Assembly (NCBI GenBank): GCA_017936545.1 | Contig: JAGBFJ010000101.1 | Location: forward strand, 1 to 47,845 | DNA length: 47,845 nucleotides | Source: Sutterella sp. | Lineage (GTDB): Bacteria > Pseudomonadota > Gammaproteobacteria > Burkholderiales > Burkholderiaceae_F | Reading direction: 5' to 3' | Part shown: piece by piece, positions 4,425 through 25,218 of the stretch | Layout of the letters: every line of letters begins with the position of its first letter | How positions within the stretch are numbered: the first letter of the stretch is position 1 | The notes under the pieces: model-generated | The model's input: the letters and a program-made list of their open reading frames with translations, nothing else | What the model was told of the DNA's origin: nothing | The model's database searches: none | Position numbers and translations under genes: made by a program

Positions 4425-4749
4425 CTTTCTGTCTCCTTTTGAAGCATCCCGGCAAAACGGATGCCTGATTTTTTCTGCCGAAATCCTACGCGAGGCGACA
4501 CGGCAGAACAAGCTCGGATTAGACCTGATCCCAATCCGGCCGAACACTTTTACATGAATGACCCGATCCGTTCTGAAACAGAACGCAGGAACCGGCCCGG
4601 CACCCGAGCCTGTCATTTTTCCTTCTGCCGTTACACTGAAGAAACGACAGTGAAGATTCCGCAGGGAATGCAACAAATAATGAACAAATGTTCAGTCATT
4701 CGGTGCCGGTGATAGAGTGACTTTAACCGAAACCAACAGGGAGCCGACC
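4425..4749. promoter_or_regulatory. Divergent intergenic region with a 14-bp inverted repeat
   Basis: No gene in these 325 bp. It separates the divergent cyuA and the Tat-exported protein gene. An inverted repeat TGAACA-AA-TGTTCA lies at 4681-4694, 56 bp before the downstream ATG. ACTTTAACC at 4720-4728 is identical to one arm of the operator-like repeat in front of gntR (20499-20507), but the other arm is missing here. Confidence 0.4.
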
Positions 4750-5223
4750 ATGATTACCCGCCGCCATCTGATTCTCGGAGCCTGCTCCGCCCTGCTTCCG
4801 TTCGCCGGCGTACCGACAGCCGAAGCTCACGACCGGATTCTTGTCGAAGATCTGATCTACGGCGTCTCGGACGCACTCATCCGCAGCTACATCCGCAATC
4901 ACTACGACCGCGCGTACTGGCACAACGGATACTGGTGGCTCGACGGCCGCCGCTACAGCGTCATCGAGTACCGCAACTACCTGATCGAAGACTACTACCG
5001 CGATCGGCGTCACCGGCAGTACGGACACCGCCCGCCTCCTGCGCCGCCGCATCATCGCCCGGCCCCGCCGCCTCATCATCGCCCTGCTCCGCCGACGCGA
5101 GCGGAACTCCGGCATCGGCCTCCCGCGCCGCCGAAGAGAGATCACGGTCATCGTCCGCCCACTCCGGGCGGATCGGGACACCGGCCTCCGCCCGACGGGC
5201 ACCATAGGCCGCCGCGGCACTGA
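4750..5223 (+). CDS. Tat-exported histidine/proline-rich protein
   Basis: Small periplasmic protein of unknown role. The ATG at 4750 has AGGGAG 6 bases upstream. The N-terminus MITRRHLILGACSALLPFAGVPTAEAHD has a twin-arginine-like motif (TRRHLIL), a hydrophobic core and an AEA-type cleavage site. The mature part has an aromatic-rich segment (YDRAYWHNGYWWLDGRRYSVIEYRNYLIEDYYRD, about residues 55-90). A 65-residue tail follows made almost wholly of Pro, His and Arg in repeats such as PHHRPAPP. The histidine density suggests metal binding, which is inference. It could alternatively be a cell-surface or stress protein. No same-strand neighbour. Confidence 0.7.
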   Translation: MITRRHLILGACSALLPFAGVPTAEAHDRILVEDLIYGVSDALIRSYIRNHYDRAYWHNGYWWLDGRRYSVIEYRNYLIEDYYRDRRHRQYGHRPPPAPPHHRPAPPPHHRPAPPTRAELRHRPPAPPKRDHGHRPPTPGGSGHRPPPDGHHRPPRH

Positions 5224-15820: not shown

Positions 15821-17755
15821 ATGAACAGCACTCATCTTCTCGGCCGCCGCGCCTTTCTGAGGTCCGCTGCAGCCGCTGGCGCCGCCGGAATCGGCGTGCG
15901 CGGCGCCTGTGCTGCAGACGCGCCGCAACTCACCTACAAGCCGGGTATCTACACGGCGAAGGCTGCGGGCATCAGCAGCGACGTGACGGTCAAAGCCGCA
16001 TTCGACAGCAGCCGCATTGTTGATGTGGTCATCGACGCTGCCGGCGAGACCAAGGGCATCGGCGCCGACATCGGCGAACTGATGGCCAAACGCATGCTCG
16101 CCGCCCAGACCTGCTCGGTCGACGGTGTTTCAGGTGCTACGGTCACCTCCAACGCCGTCAAAACAGCGCTTGCCGACTGCATGAGTCAGGCATCCGGGAC
16201 ATCTGTCGAGGTTCGCGTCGAGATCGACGGATCGAAGAACGAAACGGTCGACCTTGACAGGATCGTGCCCGCCGTGACGGTAAAGACCGAAGCCGTCGTT
16301 CTCGGCTGCGGCGCCGCCGGCATTCAGGCCGCGCTCGTTCTTCAGGCAGCCGGCGTCAAAACCCGTCTGCTGGAAAAGGGGAGCAGCTGCGGCGTCAGCA
16401 ACGGGAGTCAGGCAGGCGGACCCGCGCTGGCTGAAACCCGCGTTCAGGCGGCCGAACGGGCAACCGTGTTGGTGCGGACCCTTTTTGAATGCCAAAACGG
16501 TTTCAGCCGCGGCACCGTGAACGCAGGTCTTCTGCGCAAGTGCGTCGCACAGGGAGAACGCGTCGTCTCCGCCTTCATGGACAACGGCGTCAATATGGGA
16601 CTGAGGCGCGATGCCTACGGCATGGGCTTCAGAGCCCGGCACAACTTTGCCGACAAGGAAGGCCGGCAGCTTCGAGGCACCGACCGATTCGGTCCGCTCA
16701 TTACAAAATTCACGGCCATGGGCGGCGTTTTCGAAACACAGCGGGAAGCTGTTCGGCTTCTTAAAAAGGACGGCGCCGTCGCCGGCGTGCTGGTGAAAAA
16801 CGGAGAAGACGGCACGTATGCGCGCTATGAGGCCAAGGCCGTGCTTGTTGCAACCGGCGGTTACGCCGGAAGCGACGAGATGATCCGCGAACATTTCGGA
16901 GACATCAGCGTCATGCCGCTCTGCAACACTCTTTCGAACGGCGCGGGCTACAGAATGATCATGGAGGCGGGCGGCGTCGCAGACCGCAACTGGGCGCTCT
17001 GCTGCAATGAGTTCGGCGGCGCCAACCGCAAGTGCGCCAAACAGGGAAAGGCGATCGTGCGTTCCAATGACGCGCTCCGTTTTGCCATTTACGGCGGCCT
17101 CATCGTCGACGCCTACGGCGACCGCTTCATGAACGAACAGTACCTCTCCGACCGTCCTCTCGCTCTGGGCGGAGAGATCAGCCTGCGCGCAGCCCGCTAC
17201 TATGCGGTTCTCGACGAAGACATGTACCGGTGCTGCCGCGATGAAGGCATTCTCAGCTACTACGGACGTCCCCGGGACTGGTATGTCGGCATGACAGGCC
17301 TTGCGAAGGAAAAGCTCCCGAATCTTGACAAAGACATGGCCGAGGCCGTCTCCCGCGGGTATGCCGCAGAGGGGACGCTCGCCGAGTGCGCAAAGGCTTT
17401 CGGGCTTGAGAATCTTGAAAAAACTGTTGCCAGATACAACGAGCTCTGCCGGAGCGGATCTGACGATGATTTCTTCAAGAGCAGCTATCTGCTCAAAGCG
17501 CTCAAACCCGGCAGATTCCGGGTTGTCGAATACGAACCCTCCATCTGGTGCACGTTCGGCGGCGTCAAGACCGATGCCTACTGCCGGGCGCTCACGACCG
17601 ACCAGAAGCCGATTCCGGGTCTTTATGTTGCCGGCGTCGACAACGGCAGTCTCTACTGCTCGCCTTATTATGAAAATGAGGGCGCTGCGCTCGGGCTTGC
17701 CTTCACGAGCGGCATCGTAGCCGCCGACTGCATGGTGAAGTTCGTCAGAGGCTGA
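15821..17755 (+). CDS. Tat-exported flavin reductase: FMN-binding plus FAD-binding (fumarate-reductase-like) domains
   Basis: Periplasmic flavoprotein of the fumarate/urocanate reductase type, probably a terminal reductase in anaerobic respiration. Start ATG at 15821 with AGGAGG 8 bases upstream. Residues 1-32 are a Tat signal (GRRAFLRSAAAAGAAGIG, cleavage after ACA). Residues 35-130 are an FMN_bind domain with the covalent-FMN motif DGVSGATVTSNAVKTAL. From residue 155 comes the FAD domain (EAVVLGCGAAGIQAALVLQAAGVKTRLLEKG), ending in IPGLYVAGVDNGSLYCSPYYENEGAALGLAFTSG. There is no haem domain. Where fumarate reductases have H-x-T-M-G-G and the substrate arginine, this has WCTFGG and PYYENEG, so the substrate is probably not fumarate. 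No adjacent cytochrome or membrane partner. Confidence 0.88.
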   Translation: MNSTHLLGRRAFLRSAAAAGAAGIGVRGACAADAPQLTYKPGIYTAKAAGISSDVTVKAAFDSSRIVDVVIDAAGETKGIGADIGELMAKRMLAAQTCSVDGVSGATVTSNAVKTALADCMSQASGTSVEVRVEIDGSKNETVDLDRIVPAVTVKTEAVVLGCGAAGIQAALVLQAAGVKTRLLEKGSSCGVSNGSQAGGPALAETRVQAAERATVLVRTLFECQNGFSRGTVNAGLLRKCVAQGERVVSAFMDNGVNMGLRRDAYGMGFRARHNFADKEGRQLRGTDRFGPLITKFTAMGGVFETQREAVRLLKKDGAVAGVLVKNGEDGTYARYEAKAVLVATGGYAGSDEMIREHFGDISVMPLCNTLSNGAGYRMIMEAGGVADRNWALCCNEFGGANRKCAKQGKAIVRSNDALRFAIYGGLIVDAYGDRFMNEQYLSDRPLALGGEISLRAARYYAVLDEDMYRCCRDEGILSYYGRPRDWYVGMTGLAKEKLPNLDKDMAEAVSRGYAAEGTLAECAKAFGLENLEKTVARYNELCRSGSDDDFFKSSYLLKALKPGRFRVVEYEPSIWCTFGGVKTDAYCRALTTDQKPIPGLYVAGVDNGSLYCSPYYENEGAALGLAFTSGIVAADCMVKFVRG

Positions 17756-19750: not shown

Positions 19751-20464
19751 TCAGAGGCGGATGCGGCAGTAGCGGCTGTCCGCCTTTTCAATGCGGTACT
19801 CGCAGGGCGTTCCGTGCGCGTCGTAGGTGATGCGCGTCACGACGAGCATGGGAATGCCCGGAGGCAGCGTGACCATGGCGGCATCCTCTTCGCTCAGAAG
19901 CTCCGCTCTGACGTAGTCGCTCGATGACGCAACAAGCACGCCGTCGGTTTTTTCCAGAAGCGCGTAAAGGTTCTGCCCGGGCTCGCGCTTTTCAAAATCC
20001 TCCGCGCTGATGCGGGGAAAAATCGATCGGACCAGGTAGGACTCGTCGAGTCCCGATGCCTTCTCGTCAAAGCGCATCAGGCGCTTACAGTGAACGACAT
20101 CCCTCCCTTCGGGAATGCCGAGCTTTTCGGCGATGTCGGCCGACGCAGGAATGACTTCAAAAAGAAGCACCCGGTCCCGAAATCGCTCGATGATCGAGCC
20201 GTCGGGACGCTGAAAGCGCTGAAACCGATTCCAGTAGCCGCCCTTGATGTAGCTCGACACGTAGGTGCCGCTGCCGTGACGGCAGATGATGACGCCCTCG
20301 TCCTCGAGCGTCTCGATCGCACGGCGCACCGTGCCGATGCCGACTTTGAACAGACCGGCCAGGCGGTCGAAGGCCGGGAGCTTCTCGCCGGGCCTCCATT
20401 CGCCGTCGGCGATGCGGCGTCGGATACCGGTCTTCACCAGAAGATACTTGTCGCGTCGGGGCAT
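19751..20464 (-). CDS. GntR-family transcriptional regulator (HutC/UTRA type)
   Basis: 237 residues. The N-terminal winged helix-turn-helix is typical: LVKTGIRRRIADGEWRPGEKLPAFDRLAGLFKVGIGTVRRAIETLEDEGVIICRHGSGTYVSSYIK. The UTRA ligand domain follows from about residue 85 (FRDRVLLFEVIPASADIAEKLGIPEGRDVVHCKRLMRFDEKASGLDESYLVRSIFP and PMLVVTRITYDAHGTPCEYRIEKADSRYCRIRL). The ATG at 20464 was chosen because the helix-turn-helix starts right after it; longer starts run through the operator. It is divergent from the transporter and M20 peptidase genes and has a 28-bp inverted repeat just upstream, so it probably represses itself and may act on its neighbours. Effector unknown. Confidence 0.88.
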   Translation of the reverse strand: MPRRDKYLLVKTGIRRRIADGEWRPGEKLPAFDRLAGLFKVGIGTVRRAIETLEDEGVIICRHGSGTYVSSYIKGGYWNRFQRFQRPDGSIIERFRDRVLLFEVIPASADIAEKLGIPEGRDVVHCKRLMRFDEKASGLDESYLVRSIFPRISAEDFEKREPGQNLYALLEKTDGVLVASSSDYVRAELLSEEDAAMVTLPPGIPMLVVTRITYDAHGTPCEYRIEKADSRYCRIRL

Positions 20465-20479
20465 ATTCTGCTCATGGTC

Positions 20480-20507
20480 GGTTAAAGTCTGACGACACAC
20501 TTTAACC
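20480..20507. promoter_or_regulatory. Candidate GntR operator, 9-bp arms
   Basis: GGTTAAAGT (20480-20488) and ACTTTAACC (20499-20507), perfectly complementary with a 10-bp spacer. It lies 15 bp before the gntR start, in autoregulatory position. Confidence 0.65.
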
Positions 20508-20795
20508 CGAATGCTTCCGAACGAGCAAGCGCTGTTCCGCCGCTCGGCGTCCTGCGCCGATGTCCGAATCCGCGATGTCCGAATCGGGTGCGTCTTATTC
20601 GATGAATCCGTCACCGTCCGCTGCTGACGACTCTCCTGCAGGCAGAAGCCGCCTGCCCCCGCCGCTTTTCTCCCTCCGCCCGATGGGGCGCCTTTGCTCC
20701 GGCATTCGCGGCTCATTCAGAATTTCCCGATTTCCGAAGCGCTTGCGTCTCCTCCGCCCATAAGCACTTTGCTCTATGGACATTTATTTCCGCAG

Positions 20796-20812
20796 GGTTA
20801 CAATTTGAAACC
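20796..20812 (+). promoter_or_regulatory. 17-bp palindrome overlapping the -10 of the transporter promoter
   Basis: GGTT-x-CAA-x-TTG-x-AACC symmetry (GGTTACAATTTGAAACC). It contains TACAAT (20799-20804), a good -10; transcription would start near 20811, a few bases before the riboswitch. A repressor bound here would block the promoter. The outer GGTT/AACC is shared with the gntR operator. Confidence 0.5.
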
Positions 20813-20814
20813 AT

Positions 20815-20988
20815 CAAGGTAGAGGCGCGGTTCTCATCAGTAGGCTTTGCTGACAAACCCTGGGGAGGGAGTGAAGCAGAAAGGGAGCACCGCCGAAGGA
20901 CGGCACTGCATCCTCGCGTGCCGGACCTGGGCTGCAGGAGAACATCCTGCGGACTGTCGCAGAAATGCGGAGCGCTGCCGGATACTTG
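20815..20988 (+). promoter_or_regulatory. Lysine riboswitch (L-box) in the leader of the NhaC-family transporter
   Basis: About 174 nt with the conserved L-box elements in order: AGAGGCGCGG at 20821, CAGTAGGC at 20838, GGGAGGGAGTGAAGCAG, then GCACCGCCGAAGG at 20889, CTGGGCTG, GTCGCAG and GCGGAGCGC near 20968. These follow the order of the E. coli lysC leader (AGAGGCGCG, AAGTAAC, GCATCGCCGAGG, GGGTTGTC, GGAGCAC). The P1 helix closes as CAAGGTA (20815-20821) with TACTTG (20983-20988). An intrinsic terminator follows at 21045, so lysine binding should stop transcription before the transporter gene. Recognised by eye; not scored with a covariance model. Confidence 0.85.
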
Positions 20989-21044
20989 TCAGTCCTGCCG
21001 TTTTACGGCGATCCTTTGTCGTACCCGCAAAGAACTGCCAATGG

Positions 21045-21085
21045 GGCTGTGAGTCCGGAAGAAGGCTCACGGCCTTTATTGTTTT
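21045..21085 (+). terminator. Attenuator terminator between lysine riboswitch and transporter gene
   Basis: GGCTGTGAG (21045-21053) pairs with CTCACGGCC (21066-21074) with one G-U wobble, followed by TTTATTGTTTT. It ends 28 bp before the GTG start and is the expression platform of the riboswitch. The 650 bp between gntR and the transporter hold only control elements, no gene. Confidence 0.85.
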
Positions 21086-21113
21086 CAACTCTTTGCTGAC
21101 AGGGGAACCCGCT

Positions 21114-22535
21114 GTGCAAAACAACACTCAGGAACGTACCGTCGCGCCGTGGCAGGCCATGCTGATGCTGGCCGTCGGCGTCTTCATCATCTTCTTCGGC
21201 CTCATGGGTCTCGGCGTCAACGCCCGCATCGTGCTTGCGGTCGACGGCGTCATCATGTGCCTGATGGCCTGCCTTTTCGGCATTCCCTACGATGCGCTGC
21301 AGAAGGGCATCAAGGACACGATCGCCTCGATGCTGATCGCCATGCTGATTCTGCTCGCCGTCGGCGTGCTCATCAGCTCCTGGATGGCGGCGGGCACGAT
21401 TCCCGTCATGATCTACTACGGCATGCAGGTGATCACCCCGGCCCTCTTCCTGCCGGTCGCCTGCATTCTCTGCACGCTGATGAGCACCTTCGCTGGCACT
21501 TCCTGGGGCACGCTCGCCACTGTGGGCGTCGCCTGCATGGGCGTGGCCGAAGGTCTCGGCGTGCCGCTCGAAGCCGCCGCCGGCGCGATCTGCGTCGGCG
21601 CCTTCTTCGGCGACAAGATGTCCCCGCTCAGCGACTCGACCGTCATTACGGCCACGGTCACGGACACGCCCCTGATGGAAGGCATCCGCCACGCCCTGAT
21701 TTCCACGGGTCCGGCCTACATCATCAGCCTTCTGTTCTTCTTCATCTACGGCCTGAACTTCGGCAACGGCACGGTTGAAAGCGCAGCCTACACCGAAATT
21801 CTTCAGACGATCGCGAAGAGCTTCAGTCTCAATCCGATCACGCTTCTGCCCGTTGCCGTCGTGATCGCGCTCATCTGCTGGAAGAAGCCCACGCTGCCCA
21901 CGTTCGTCGCCGGCATCGCCGTCGCCGCCGTTCTCGCCATGCTTCTGCAGGACGTGAGCCTCAAGAACACCCTCACCTACATGTATTCCGGCTATTCCGG
22001 CCACAGCGGCTCCGCACTCGTCGACAAGATGCTCAACCGCGGCGGCTTCACCTCGATGCTCTCCACGATCGGCCTTCTGATGGCGGCCGCCATGTTCGGC
22101 GCCCCGCTTCGCACGGCCGGCGTCGCCCAGGTGCTGCTCGACCTCGTCAAGAAGGCCGCCCGGAACAGCCGCATCATGAGCTTCCTCGTCATGTGCCTGC
22201 ACGCCGTCTTCTTCACGATCACCGGCGCCTACTACGTGAGCTACCCCGTCATCGGCGCGATGACGAAGGACATGTTCCCGGAATACCGCCTGCAGCGCAA
22301 GAACCTCATGCGCATGATGCTCGACACCGGCACGGGCCTTGCTCCGCTGGTTCCCTGGTCCACCACGGGTTCCTACACGGCCTCCACGCTCGGCGTCGCC
22401 AACATGGCCTTCCTGCCCTTTGCACCGATGCTCTGGCTCTCGATTCTCTTCTCGGTCTTCTATGCCCTCACCGGCATCGGCATGGCGAAGCTTCGCGAAA
22501 ATACCGAAGAACCCGCCAAGCCGCAGGCCGCCTGA
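21114..22535 (+). CDS. NhaC-family antiporter, lysine-riboswitch controlled (putative lysine transporter, LysW-like)
   Basis: 473-residue inner-membrane carrier of the NhaC Na+/H+ antiporter superfamily with about eleven helices. Characteristic stretches are STFAGTSWGTLATVGVACMGVAEGLGVPLEAAAGAICVGAFFGDKMSPLSDSTVITATVTDT, and near the C-terminus LVPWSTTGSYTASTLGV. The start is GTG at 21114 with AGGGGA 7 bases upstream; the frame remains open leftwards to 20847 but that part is the riboswitch. NhaC-type carriers behind L-boxes have been proposed to import lysine (LysW), so lysine is the inferred substrate. It lies 45 bp before the M20 peptidase gene, in one operon. Confidence 0.88.
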   Translation: MQNNTQERTVAPWQAMLMLAVGVFIIFFGLMGLGVNARIVLAVDGVIMCLMACLFGIPYDALQKGIKDTIASMLIAMLILLAVGVLISSWMAAGTIPVMIYYGMQVITPALFLPVACILCTLMSTFAGTSWGTLATVGVACMGVAEGLGVPLEAAAGAICVGAFFGDKMSPLSDSTVITATVTDTPLMEGIRHALISTGPAYIISLLFFFIYGLNFGNGTVESAAYTEILQTIAKSFSLNPITLLPVAVVIALICWKKPTLPTFVAGIAVAAVLAMLLQDVSLKNTLTYMYSGYSGHSGSALVDKMLNRGGFTSMLSTIGLLMAAAMFGAPLRTAGVAQVLLDLVKKAARNSRIMSFLVMCLHAVFFTITGAYYVSYPVIGAMTKDMFPEYRLQRKNLMRMMLDTGTGLAPLVPWSTTGSYTASTLGVANMAFLPFAPMLWLSILFSVFYALTGIGMAKLRENTEEPAKPQAA

Positions 22536-22580
22536 ATCCGACACTGCTGAAACCGAATTACTCATTATAGGGAACCCATT

Positions 22581-23723
22581 ATGGAAACCGTTATCCGCCG
22601 CTGGCACGAACTCATCGGAATCAAGTCCGTCACGGGCCGCGAAGTCGACGCTGCCGACTATGTTGCCGGCGTGCTCGAAAGCTTCGGCCTTGAAGCGCAC
22701 CGCAGCTATTTCCCAGAAGACACCGACAAGGAACGTCCGAGCGTCTGGTGCGTTCTCGACAGCGGCCGTCCCGGCAAGACCATGATGCTGATCGGTCATA
22801 TCGACACGGTCGACGTGAATCCGGCCAATTGGCGTACGGACCCCTTCAAGGCCACCGAAATAGACGGCCTCGTCTACGGCCGCGGTTCGATGGACATGAA
22901 GGGCGGCATCTCCTGCATTCTCTCGACACTGGAATACTTCGCCGCTCACCGCGATGAATTCAGCGGCCGCATTCTCGGCTGCTTCGTCGCCGACGAGGAA
23001 GGTCTCAGCAAGGGCACCTACCAGCTCGTCGACGAAGGCAACATCCAGGCCGACTGCGCCATCATGGCCGAATGCCGCTACGACAACGTCGCCGTGGGCT
23101 TCCGCGGCCGCTTCAGCTTTGAAATCACCGTGAAGGGCGTGGCCGCGCATGCGAGCCGCTATCCCGAAGTCGGCGAAAACGCGCTCATCAGCGCCGGCCG
23201 TCTGGCCGCCGCCATCGAAGCGCTGCCGACGCTCACGCATCCGAAGCTTCATCACGGCACCTGGTGCGTGCGCTACATCGAAGGCGGCCATTCCGGCGTG
23301 CTCGTCGTGCCCGACAGCTGCTATATGTTCGTCGACCGCTACGTCGTGCCAGGCGAAACCGCCGAAACCTGCATCGCCCAGATGCAGGAAGCCGCCGAGA
23401 AGCTCGGACTCGGGGACAAGTGCGACATCCGCCTGAAGCCCCGCAAGAGTCCCTACATGCAGTCCTTCGCGATTCCGGAAGACCATCCGCTCGTCACGAC
23501 GCTGCGCCGCAACTTTGCCGAAGTCACCGGAGAAGAACTGCGCATCGAATACGACCCCTCGGTCTGCGACTCGAACATCCTTGCGGTGTCGCTCGGCATT
23601 CCCGTGGTCACCTTCGGTCCGTCCGGCGGCAACATGCACGGCGATAACGAATACGGCGTGCCCGAACAGGTCCTCAATTGTCTTGAAATCTACAAGAAGA
23701 CGGTCCGCGACATGCTTGCCTGA
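22581..23723 (+). CDS. M20 family metallopeptidase (ArgE/DapE/CPG2 type)
   Basis: 380-residue cytoplasmic zinc hydrolase. Metal-binding blocks: MMLIGHIDTVDV (His and Asp), YGRGSMDMKGGISC (bridging Asp), FVADEEGLSKGT (catalytic Glu and ligand Glu), AECRYDNVAVGFRGRF and C-terminal FGPSGGNMHGDNEYG (His). The dimerisation domain lies at about residues 180-290 (HASRYPEVGENALISAGRLAAAIEAL). It shares the transcript of the lysine-riboswitch-controlled transporter, so a lysine-containing substrate (acyl-lysine or a lysyl peptide) is a reasonable inference; sequence alone does not separate deacetylase from dipeptidase. Confidence 0.87.
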   Translation: METVIRRWHELIGIKSVTGREVDAADYVAGVLESFGLEAHRSYFPEDTDKERPSVWCVLDSGRPGKTMMLIGHIDTVDVNPANWRTDPFKATEIDGLVYGRGSMDMKGGISCILSTLEYFAAHRDEFSGRILGCFVADEEGLSKGTYQLVDEGNIQADCAIMAECRYDNVAVGFRGRFSFEITVKGVAAHASRYPEVGENALISAGRLAAAIEALPTLTHPKLHHGTWCVRYIEGGHSGVLVVPDSCYMFVDRYVVPGETAETCIAQMQEAAEKLGLGDKCDIRLKPRKSPYMQSFAIPEDHPLVTTLRRNFAEVTGEELRIEYDPSVCDSNILAVSLGIPVVTFGPSGGNMHGDNEYGVPEQVLNCLEIYKKTVRDMLA

Positions 23724-23750
23724 TCTCTTCCGATCCGGCTTCTGAACTGA

Positions 23751-23791
23751 TGCCCGGTCTGCAGTCCCGCTGCGGCCGGGCATTCTCTTTT
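23751..23791 (+). terminator. Rho-independent terminator after the M20 gene
   Basis: TGCCCGG (23751-23757) with CCGGGCA (23776-23782), an inner GCAG/CTGC stem, then TTCTCTTTT. Confidence 0.8.
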
Positions 23792-23850
23792 CCGGAATAC
23801 TGTTCCGCCGGGCCGGCATTCCTTGCCTGCCGGCATCGGCACCGTCTCTC

Positions 23851-25218
23851 TTACTGAGCCGTTTCCCGCACCTGAGCCTCGTTGACCTGACGGCGAAAGC
23901 GCTCGAGAATCACCGCGCAGACGAAAAACGACAGGCATTCCGCAACGGCCTGGGCGGCGCAGAGACCTTCGATGCCGAAGACGAGCGGCAGTCCGGCCAC
24001 GGCGGGCAGAAAGAAGACGCCCTGTCTCAGGCTGGCGAGAAAGGTCGCCGTGCGGGCTCTGCCGAGCACCTGGAACGTCATGTTGGCGATCATGCTGACC
24101 GGAACGAAGGGAAAGCCGAGCGCCGTAAACTGCAGCGCCATGACGCCGATCGCGAGCACCTCGGGCTCGCGGATTTCAAAAAGACCGATGATGTCGGGCG
24201 CCAGGATCCAGGCGGCGACGGCGGCCGAGCACATGAAGGCGAACCCCGCCGACACAGTGCAGACCAGCGCCAGACGAATCCGATCAAACTTCCGGGCGCC
24301 CCAATTGAATCCCAGTACAGGCTGAAAACCCTGTCCGAGTCCGATCATGACCGCGTTGACACTCATCAGCACGCGTCCTTCGATGCTCATCGCGGCAACG
24401 GCGGCGTCACCGAAGGCGCCCGCCGACAGGTTGAGCACCGATGCGGCCGCCGCGCCGAGCAGATTGCGCGTGAGACTCGGAACGCCGTTTCCGAGAATTC
24501 TCGGCGCGAGCTCGCGAATGCGGGCAAACGTCGGCCTCTCAAGACGGATGAGTCCCCGGCCGAGGATGTAGTGCGACAGCAGTCCGGCAAAACTCACTGT
24601 CTGCGAAAGCACCGCCGCCCAGGCGGCGCCGCGGATGCCGAGATCGAACGTGAAGATGAAGAGCGGCGTCAGCAGCACGTTGAGGATGCCGCCCGACACC
24701 AGGCCGATCATGCCGATGAAGGCCAGGCCTTCGCTTCTGAGGAGATTGTTGAGCGTGAACGACGCGCACATCACCGGCGCGCCGAGAAGCAGGATTTCCG
24801 AATAGGCCCGCGCCCAGGGTAGGATGCCCGGCGTGGCGCCCGCCGCCCTCAGGAGGGGGTCGAGAAAGAGTTCGCCCAGCACCAGGTAGAGGAAACCGCC
24901 GGTGAGCACCATGACGAAGCCCGTGCCGGCAATCCGGCCGGCTTCGTCGACCCGGCCGGCGCCGAGCAGACGGGAGGTCTGCGAAGCGCAGCCCTGACCG
25001 ACCATGATGCCGATAGCGCCCATCAGGGTCTGCAGGGCGAACACGACGCCGAGCGCGCCGACCGCGGCCGTGCCAAGATACGACACGAAATAAGTGGAGG
25101 CCGTGTTGTACACCGCCGGCGTCAGCATGCTGATCATGGTCGGGATGCCGAGGCGAAGCACCAGCGGAAAAACCGGTGCCATCAGCATTCGTGTGCGGGT
25201 GGATTGATCGGCGGCCAT
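23851..25218 (-). CDS. MATE family efflux transporter (MepA-like)
   Basis: 455 residues, twelve predicted helices in two repeats, as expected for multidrug and toxic-compound cation antiporters. Repeat-1 features: LVLRLGIPTMISMLTPAVYNTASTYFVSYLGTAAVGALGVVFALQ and GIMVGQGCASQTSRLLGAGR. Repeat-2 features: SLTRNLLGAAAASVLNL, then GRVLMSVNAVMIGLGQGFQPVLGFNWGARKFDRIR, the MepA-type signature. The ATG at 25218 fits the family N-terminus. It is divergent from the lipoprotein gene; substrate unknown. Confidence 0.88.
   Translation of the reverse strand: MAADQSTRTRMLMAPVFPLVLRLGIPTMISMLTPAVYNTASTYFVSYLGTAAVGALGVVFALQTLMGAIGIMVGQGCASQTSRLLGAGRVDEAGRIAGTGFVMVLTGGFLYLVLGELFLDPLLRAAGATPGILPWARAYSEILLLGAPVMCASFTLNNLLRSEGLAFIGMIGLVSGGILNVLLTPLFIFTFDLGIRGAAWAAVLSQTVSFAGLLSHYILGRGLIRLERPTFARIRELAPRILGNGVPSLTRNLLGAAAASVLNLSAGAFGDAAVAAMSIEGRVLMSVNAVMIGLGQGFQPVLGFNWGARKFDRIRLALVCTVSAGFAFMCSAAVAAWILAPDIIGLFEIREPEVLAIGVMALQFTALGFPFVPVSMIANMTFQVLGRARTATFLASLRQGVFFLPAVAGLPLVFGIEGLCAAQAVAECLSFFVCAVILERFRRQVNEAQVRETAQ

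Follow-up and report, generated by a model that had tools for sequence, protein, structure and literature searches.

An Aptamer, a Terminator-Like Hairpin, and a Conserved Gene Pair

The locus described here lies in a 47,845-base stretch of DNA (contig JAGBFJ010000101.1 of the Sutterella sp. assembly GCA_017936545.1), which was analyzed at its full length and is referred to below as the window. An aptamer of the lysine riboswitch (L-box) class and a terminator-like hairpin precede the genes for an NhaC-family secondary carrier and an M20 metallohydrolase (Table 1), and this gene pair is conserved and spread over three phyla.

The Rfam covariance model for the lysine riboswitch (RF00168) matched the leader over model positions 1 to 182 with a score of 89.1 bits, far above the gathering score of 30 bits, and with an E value of 3.3e-22, which rules out a chance L-box; no other Rfam match in the window reached the gathering threshold. 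Of the 49 upper-case consensus positions in the alignment, 42 are identical in the window aptamer; four of the seven differences fall in the loop of the first hairpin, one, a gap, falls in the P5 loop, and the remaining two are the two sides of a single P5 pair, in which A-U has been replaced by a compensating G-C. The 53 consensus pairs comprise 44 standard, 3 gapped, and 6 other pairs, and a comparison of 14 aptamers from leaders of the same NhaC-M20 cassette revealed compensatory changes at 29 of 45 predicted pairs. At the level of sequence, the leader is confirmed as a lysine riboswitch of the Rfam class, which would bind lysine as its ligand. A first-pass annotation of this DNA had named an L-box here and proposed the covariance scan that bears it out, but it placed the P1 helix at 20815-20821 and 20983-20988, whereas the model pairs 20817-20822 with 20975-20980; one fold allows a possible outward extension of P1 (20813-20815 with 20981-20983).

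TABLE 1. Features of the riboswitch leader and of the genes behind it
Feature	Position	Strand	Basis
Sigma-70-like promoter, TGGACA - 16 - TACAAT	20777..20804	+	Consensus match only
Lysine riboswitch (L-box) aptamer, RF00168	20812..20985	+	Full-model match, conserved positions, covariation
P1 helix, 5' strand	20817..20822	+	Covariance-model alignment
P1 helix, 3' strand	20975..20980	+	Covariance-model alignment
Candidate antiterminator 5' strand, pairing with 21043-21056 and overlapping the end of P1	20980..20996	+	Nascent-RNA folds; weak
Intrinsic terminator, hairpin 21043-21076 plus T-rich tail	21043..21087	+	Terminator scan; folds
Likely Shine-Dalgarno sequence of the NhaC gene, AGGGG	21101..21105	+	Read by eye, inference
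NhaC-family (PF03553) secondary carrier, 473 aa	21114..22535	+	Pfam and TIGR00931 matches
M20 metallohydrolase, ArgE/DapE type, 380 aa	22581..23723	+	ATG start; family matches, alignment, PDB comparison

A single promoter-like site was found near the leader, against a mean of 0.1 in shuffled sequences, and it ends seven bases upstream of the aptamer; the -10 element is the TACAAT that the first-pass annotation had placed at 20799-20804, and it is accompanied by a TGGACA -35 element. The terminator hairpin has a folding energy of about -18 to -22 kcal/mol, depending on the bounds used, and the region 20600-21150 holds three terminator-like sites (two of them overlapping) against a mean of 0.5 in shuffles. 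The earlier reading of 57 nucleotides between aptamer and hairpin was exact, and the hairpin precedes the start codon. Terminators were also found in the leaders of five related cassettes (L047, L082, L083, L084, and L090), with weaker ones in three others (L049, L050, and L062) and a plain one, read by eye, in L080. In folds of the nascent RNA, at least part of the terminator arm is paired with the 3' region of P1 in all seven leaders folded, and pairing of the terminator 5' arm with the segment that overlaps P1 would correspond to the usual logic of an OFF switch.

The carrier belongs to the NhaC family, scoring 157.6 bits against PF03553 (cut-off, 23), and its previously proposed GTG start agrees with the family matches. 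Its score against the equivalog model for NhaC Na+/H+ antiporters (TIGR00931) is 365.8 bits, just under the cut-off of 370, and it scores 273 bits against an arginine/ornithine antiporter model with a cut-off of 650. When 29 L-box loci in other orders of the class were searched 1.5 kb to each side, the carrier found matches at 12, all partial (22 to 34% identity) and none identified as LysW.

The M20 gene begins 45 nucleotides downstream of the carrier gene, at a start that agrees with its family matches, and the two genes are probably cotranscribed. No terminator-like site was found in 22400-23900, neither between them nor just after. Scores of 100.6 bits for the catalytic domain (PF01546) and 54.0 bits for the dimerization domain (PF07687) place the protein in the M20 family. 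Residues H73, D105, E139, E140, E164, and H353 (numbering of the window protein) are invariant in 23 sequences and presumably serve as metal ligands and general base, as in DapE. Its closest solved relatives in the PDB are mostly DapE enzymes. Scores for the ArgE/DapE subfamily (TIGR01910, 198.3 bits; cut-off, 217.6), DapE (TIGR01246, 111.9; cut-off, 361.8), ArgE (TIGR01892, 128.4; cut-off, 297.7), YgeY (161.7; cut-off, 321), and [LysW]-lysine hydrolase (71.9; cut-off, 363) all lie below the respective cut-offs.

Recurrence and Spread of the NhaC-M20 Unit

In a set of 101 genomes (the genome of the window and 100 relatives), we found 43 L-boxes in 28 genomes, three of them in the window's own genome, which is 79% complete. 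Judged by the genes downstream, 10 precede an NhaC-M20 pair, 19 an APC transporter with an M38 amidohydrolase, 8 DapA with or without followers, and 3 LysP; two more, in one genome (G002), serve M38 and APC genes separately, and within 5 kb of one there is none of nine reference proteins. Ten of the 101 genomes have the M20 type, behind an L-box every time, and carriers of at least 73% identity occur in the same 10. The GntR/UTRA gene that lies divergently upstream was considered as a further member of the unit and rejected, as no reading frame at the 42 other L-box places matched it at an E value of 1e-5.

A wider scan of contigs returned 62 M20 loci, and we examined the neighbors at the 22 with at least 49% identity (L074 to L095). 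An NhaC gene is adjacent to the M20 gene at every one of them: 7 in Sutterellaceae, 9 in Clostridia, 1 in Pyramidobacter, and 5 in Synergistaceae, where four have the gene order reversed. Seven (L074 to L079 and L081) are the same records as the Sutterellaceae relatives, and two (L091 and L092) lie in one genome. The gap between the genes at the 17 NhaC-first loci measured is at most 33 nucleotides in 16 (one an overlap) and 153 in one. Among the 15 loci outside Sutterellaceae, five (L080, L082, L083, L084, and L090) carry an L-box. A search of 200 genomes from the family of genome G492 at an E value of 1e-80 recovered the M20 type in G492 itself and in no further carriers.

Phylogenetic trees, from which L050 was excluded as a near-copy of L049 (it was likewise left out of alignments A2 and A3), place the nine Sutterellaceae M20 rows in one group (support, 99/98) amid Clostridia rows, with the 14 rows that have an L-box on one side of a branch (91/94). 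The Sutterellaceae carriers also form one group (100/100). The aptamer tree holds 47 sequences; the nine from Sutterellaceae cassettes cluster together (100/95) and join the cassette aptamers of Clostridia and Pyramidobacter, apart from the L-boxes of Sutterellaceae dap, APC, and LysP loci, albeit at a weak branch (78/92); L065, a LysP locus labeled APC in this tree, groups with the LysP rows. The M20 and aptamer trees suggest that switch and genes may have crossed between phyla as one, and the simplest route would run from Clostridia to an ancestor of the unit-bearing Sutterellaceae.

A second set of genes shows a comparable likeness. DapA proteins of two Clostridia genomes (L199 and L201) are 72 to 74% identical to a Sutterellaceae DapA (L051), and those two loci and L005 of the window's own genome resemble one another in their arrangement of an L-box, dapA, dapB, and dapD, with an M20D gene in divergent orientation. 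The likeness of these dap operons between Clostridia and Sutterellaceae suggests what may be a second horizontal transfer.

Presence of the Switch and Lysine Fermentation Genes

We searched 24 genomes for the lysine fermentation genes kce (NF052387) and kdd (NF052381). Among the 20 genomes with close pairs, both genes are absent from all 15 in which the pair has an L-box and both are present in all 5 in which it has none (Fisher test, P = 6.4e-5; 0.008 for non-Sutterellaceae only; 0.012 after lineages were collapsed). This contrast was noticed and then tested afterwards. Salvage free of feedback would benefit cells that use lysine as a fuel, and the contrast makes the function of the pair testable by comparing fermenting with nonfermenting relatives.

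Other Modules behind L-Boxes

Several other combinations of transport and hydrolase genes lie behind L-boxes. In G002 (L060) two L-boxes stand in a row, one at 2501-2675 before the M38 amidohydrolase gene and one at 4644-4820 before the APC transporter gene; elsewhere these genes share a single L-box, at 19 of the 43 loci. Nine Clostridia and Synergistota genomes, searched whole, yielded 19 L-boxes in seven genomes, of which five are on NhaC-M20 pairs and 14 are others. At L193 (1128-5803), an L-box is followed by a binding protein of the lysine/arginine/ornithine (LAO)-like type (92.5 bits against a cut-off of 256), a permease, an ATPase, and an M20 peptidase, the start of which overlaps the ATPase gene at its end, and at L191 an L-box precedes an M20D-type hydrolase that exceeds its subfamily cut-off. 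At L190 (837-4429, reverse strand of the locus), the L-box is followed by a dipeptide-epimerase-like gene of the enolase superfamily and an OppA-type binding protein; the best PDB match of the enzyme is an L-Ala-D/L-Glu epimerase (360 bits), and its score is under the NCBIfam cut-off. L-boxes at L192 and L198 precede oligopeptide-type transporters, and at L198 (495-2222 and 2337-2504, reverse strand of the locus) an Amidohydro_3 (M38) gene is divergent from the L-box-led oligopeptide-type ABC set. The remaining L-boxes precede an amino-acid-type ABC set (L189, by eye), a DcuC-type carrier (L195), NhaC/Tet(35)-like carriers (L197 and, by eye, L194), dapABD (L199 and L201), and kce-kdd (L200 and L202); the calls for L189, L194, and some permeases come from sequence starts only, and L196 was left without an assignment.

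The L-box of L004 (1501-1675; G000:C62:21344-21518) is without a recognized gene of its own; about 600 nucleotides downstream lies an operon resembling DAHP synthase-aroB-aroA-aroC (named by eye). In front of this operon is a short reading frame with a high content of Phe, Tyr, and Trp that looks like an aromatic attenuator.

Two further genes in the window were noted in passing. The divergent GntR/UTRA regulator occupies 19751-20716 on the reverse strand, and its domain starts near residue 90, which makes a true start downstream of the listed one probable. At 15821-17755 lies a flavocytochrome c-like FAD/FMN-binding protein with a twin-arginine-like signal (by eye).

A Probable Riboswitch-Controlled Unit for Recovery of Bound Lysine

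We consider it probable that this leader is a lysine riboswitch that shuts off a two-gene lysine salvage unit, in which the NhaC-family carrier and the M20 enzyme would together recover bound lysine. When lysine is scarce, RNA polymerase would read through the leader, and the carrier would import lysine itself or, with greater likelihood, a compound that holds lysine in amide linkage (an N-acyl-lysine or a small lysyl peptide), from which the M20 enzyme would then release free lysine. When lysine is plentiful enough to bind the aptamer, P1 would be held, the terminator would form, and the unit would most likely be closed by premature termination. The reading as salvage draws mainly on the recurrence of transport and amide-bond enzymes behind L-boxes, and the OFF direction mainly on the order of aptamer and terminator. 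The first-pass annotation, for the most part correct in its broad lines, had recognized the riboswitch, the attenuator, and the two-gene unit, which the RF00168 match, the terminator scan, and the recurrence of the pair support. It had also proposed import of lysine by the carrier and its release from an acyl or peptide form by the M20 enzyme; the constant pairing at 22 of 22 loci, the kce/kdd contrast, and the parallel L-box modules lend indirect support to this, with either free lysine or a conjugate as the possible imported form.

Several observations weigh against this reading. We tried and rejected a firm antiterminator, as the pairing clearly beat shuffled controls in none of seven leaders (73 of 300 shuffles paired equally strongly for the window duplex, and 132 to 202 of 300 for the six other leaders). 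No terminator was found in five Sutterellaceae leaders of the Parasutterella/Turicimonas group (L035, L036, L037, L039, and L042), which rules out a single expression platform for all cassette leaders; in that branch, the output part of the switch appears to have been altered. The Shine-Dalgarno regions of these five leaders show a tendency toward pairing (mean unpaired, 0.01 to 0.53, compared with 0.30 in the window; calculated without a shuffled control), and translational control of these leaders is offered only as a suggestion. None of the NCBIfam equivalogs could be assigned to the M20 protein. At 10 of the 15 non-Sutterellaceae loci the pair has no L-box at the gathering score, so the link to lysine is not universal; five of these (L085 to L089) have none even at an E value of 1, while the RNA search of L091 to L095 was made at the gathering threshold and L094 offers only 147 nucleotides before its M20 gene. 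In the carrier tree the rows with an L-box do not form one group, and three changes are needed. Finally, the kce/kdd contrast depends on about three lineages without an L-box and on non-Sutterellaceae genomes of unstated completeness, and four Synergistaceae genomes with 50%-identical pairs have no kce or kdd, yet no L-box was found on the pair (one leader being the short one above).

The alternative that survives best, which we nevertheless regard as unlikely, is that only the carrier is a lysine gene, acting in LysW-like uptake of free lysine or in lysine/proton exchange, and that the M20 enzyme acts as a general-purpose peptidase or deacylase that merely shares the transcript and whose product need not be lysine. 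Published L-boxes before NhaC-type carriers, some in Betaproteobacteria (PMC5584792, in the part consulted), are in keeping with this, as is the score of the carrier against the arginine/ornithine antiporter model. However, the pair is intact at all 22 loci in three phyla, even where no L-box was found and where the order is reversed, and other amide hydrolases recur behind L-boxes.

It is also improbable, in our judgment, that the M20 protein is a DapE/ArgE-like deacylase of acylated diaminopimelate (DAP) or of DAP-containing wall peptides and that the unit feeds lysine synthesis through DAP. The solved relatives and the 198.3-bit subfamily score point in that direction, but the curated cut-offs of TIGR01910, TIGR01246, and TIGR01892 are all missed, and the genome contains an L-box-dapA-dapB-dapD operon of its own, separate from the unit, next to which lies a divergent M20D gene. 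An ON switch for lysine disposal, in which abundant lysine would induce an exporter or antiporter together with a hydrolase, is very improbable: activation is what the consulted part of PMC5584792 describes for L-boxes before lysine catabolic genes, and L-boxes precede kce-kdd in G494 and G495, but a terminator-like hairpin follows the aptamer in the window leader, and the pair lacks an L-box in exactly those close-group genomes that have kce and kdd.

Extending the salvage reading beyond the window, we put forward a tentative proposal for gut Sutterellaceae and Clostridia, which we hold to be possible rather than probable. The lysine riboswitch might govern a salvage regulon of unrelated uptake and amide-hydrolase or peptide-processing modules (NhaC with M20, APC with M38, an LAO-like ABC transporter with M20, and a dipeptide-epimerase-like enzyme with OppA) that harvest bound lysine; the NhaC-M20 module might move between phyla with its switch, and lysine-fermenting lines might have lost the switch or never had it, such that salvage would run without feedback. 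If this is true, the reach of the lysine riboswitch would extend from synthesis and free-lysine transport to the recovery of bound lysine, several uncharacterized gut hydrolases and carriers would gain a testable substrate class, and a riboswitch would be seen moving between phyla together with its operon.

Comparison with Known Systems

No description of an L-box unit with M20 or M38 was found in the literature searched, and the main text of PMC5584792 contains neither "Sutterella" nor any word beginning with "peptidase" (a word search that "oligoendopeptidase" would escape). The part of that study consulted does describe L-boxes directly upstream of lysW, which encodes carriers of the NhaC superfamily (COG1757); the window unit resembles these and differs in having an M20 hydrolase fixed behind the carrier. 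It also describes an L-box before an oligoendopeptidase F operon in Mycoplasma, where a peptidase is likewise controlled by a lysine riboswitch and the operon also encodes a membrane protein, but the peptidase belongs to another family (COG1164) and is read there as transport related. To the first-pass remark that a peptidase under lysine riboswitch control is unusual, this is a published precedent, and our L-box survey adds further cases.

The window enzyme has its family and catalytic residues in common with the M20 deacylases of the ArgE/DapE type, yet it falls short of their curated cut-offs, and the stretch that reads GGGTSDGR in DapE reads DPSVCDSN here. The epsilon-lysine acylases, all of which known so far are M38 enzymes according to the consulted part of PMC11511702, are amide hydrolases that free lysine from N-epsilon-acyl-lysine; their fold family differs from that of the window M20 protein, whereas the parallel APC-M38 units have an M38 partner, and by analogy this membership is suggestive for what those units may do. 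The NhaC-M20 unit is a new operon type within a known riboswitch class and not a new kind of system.

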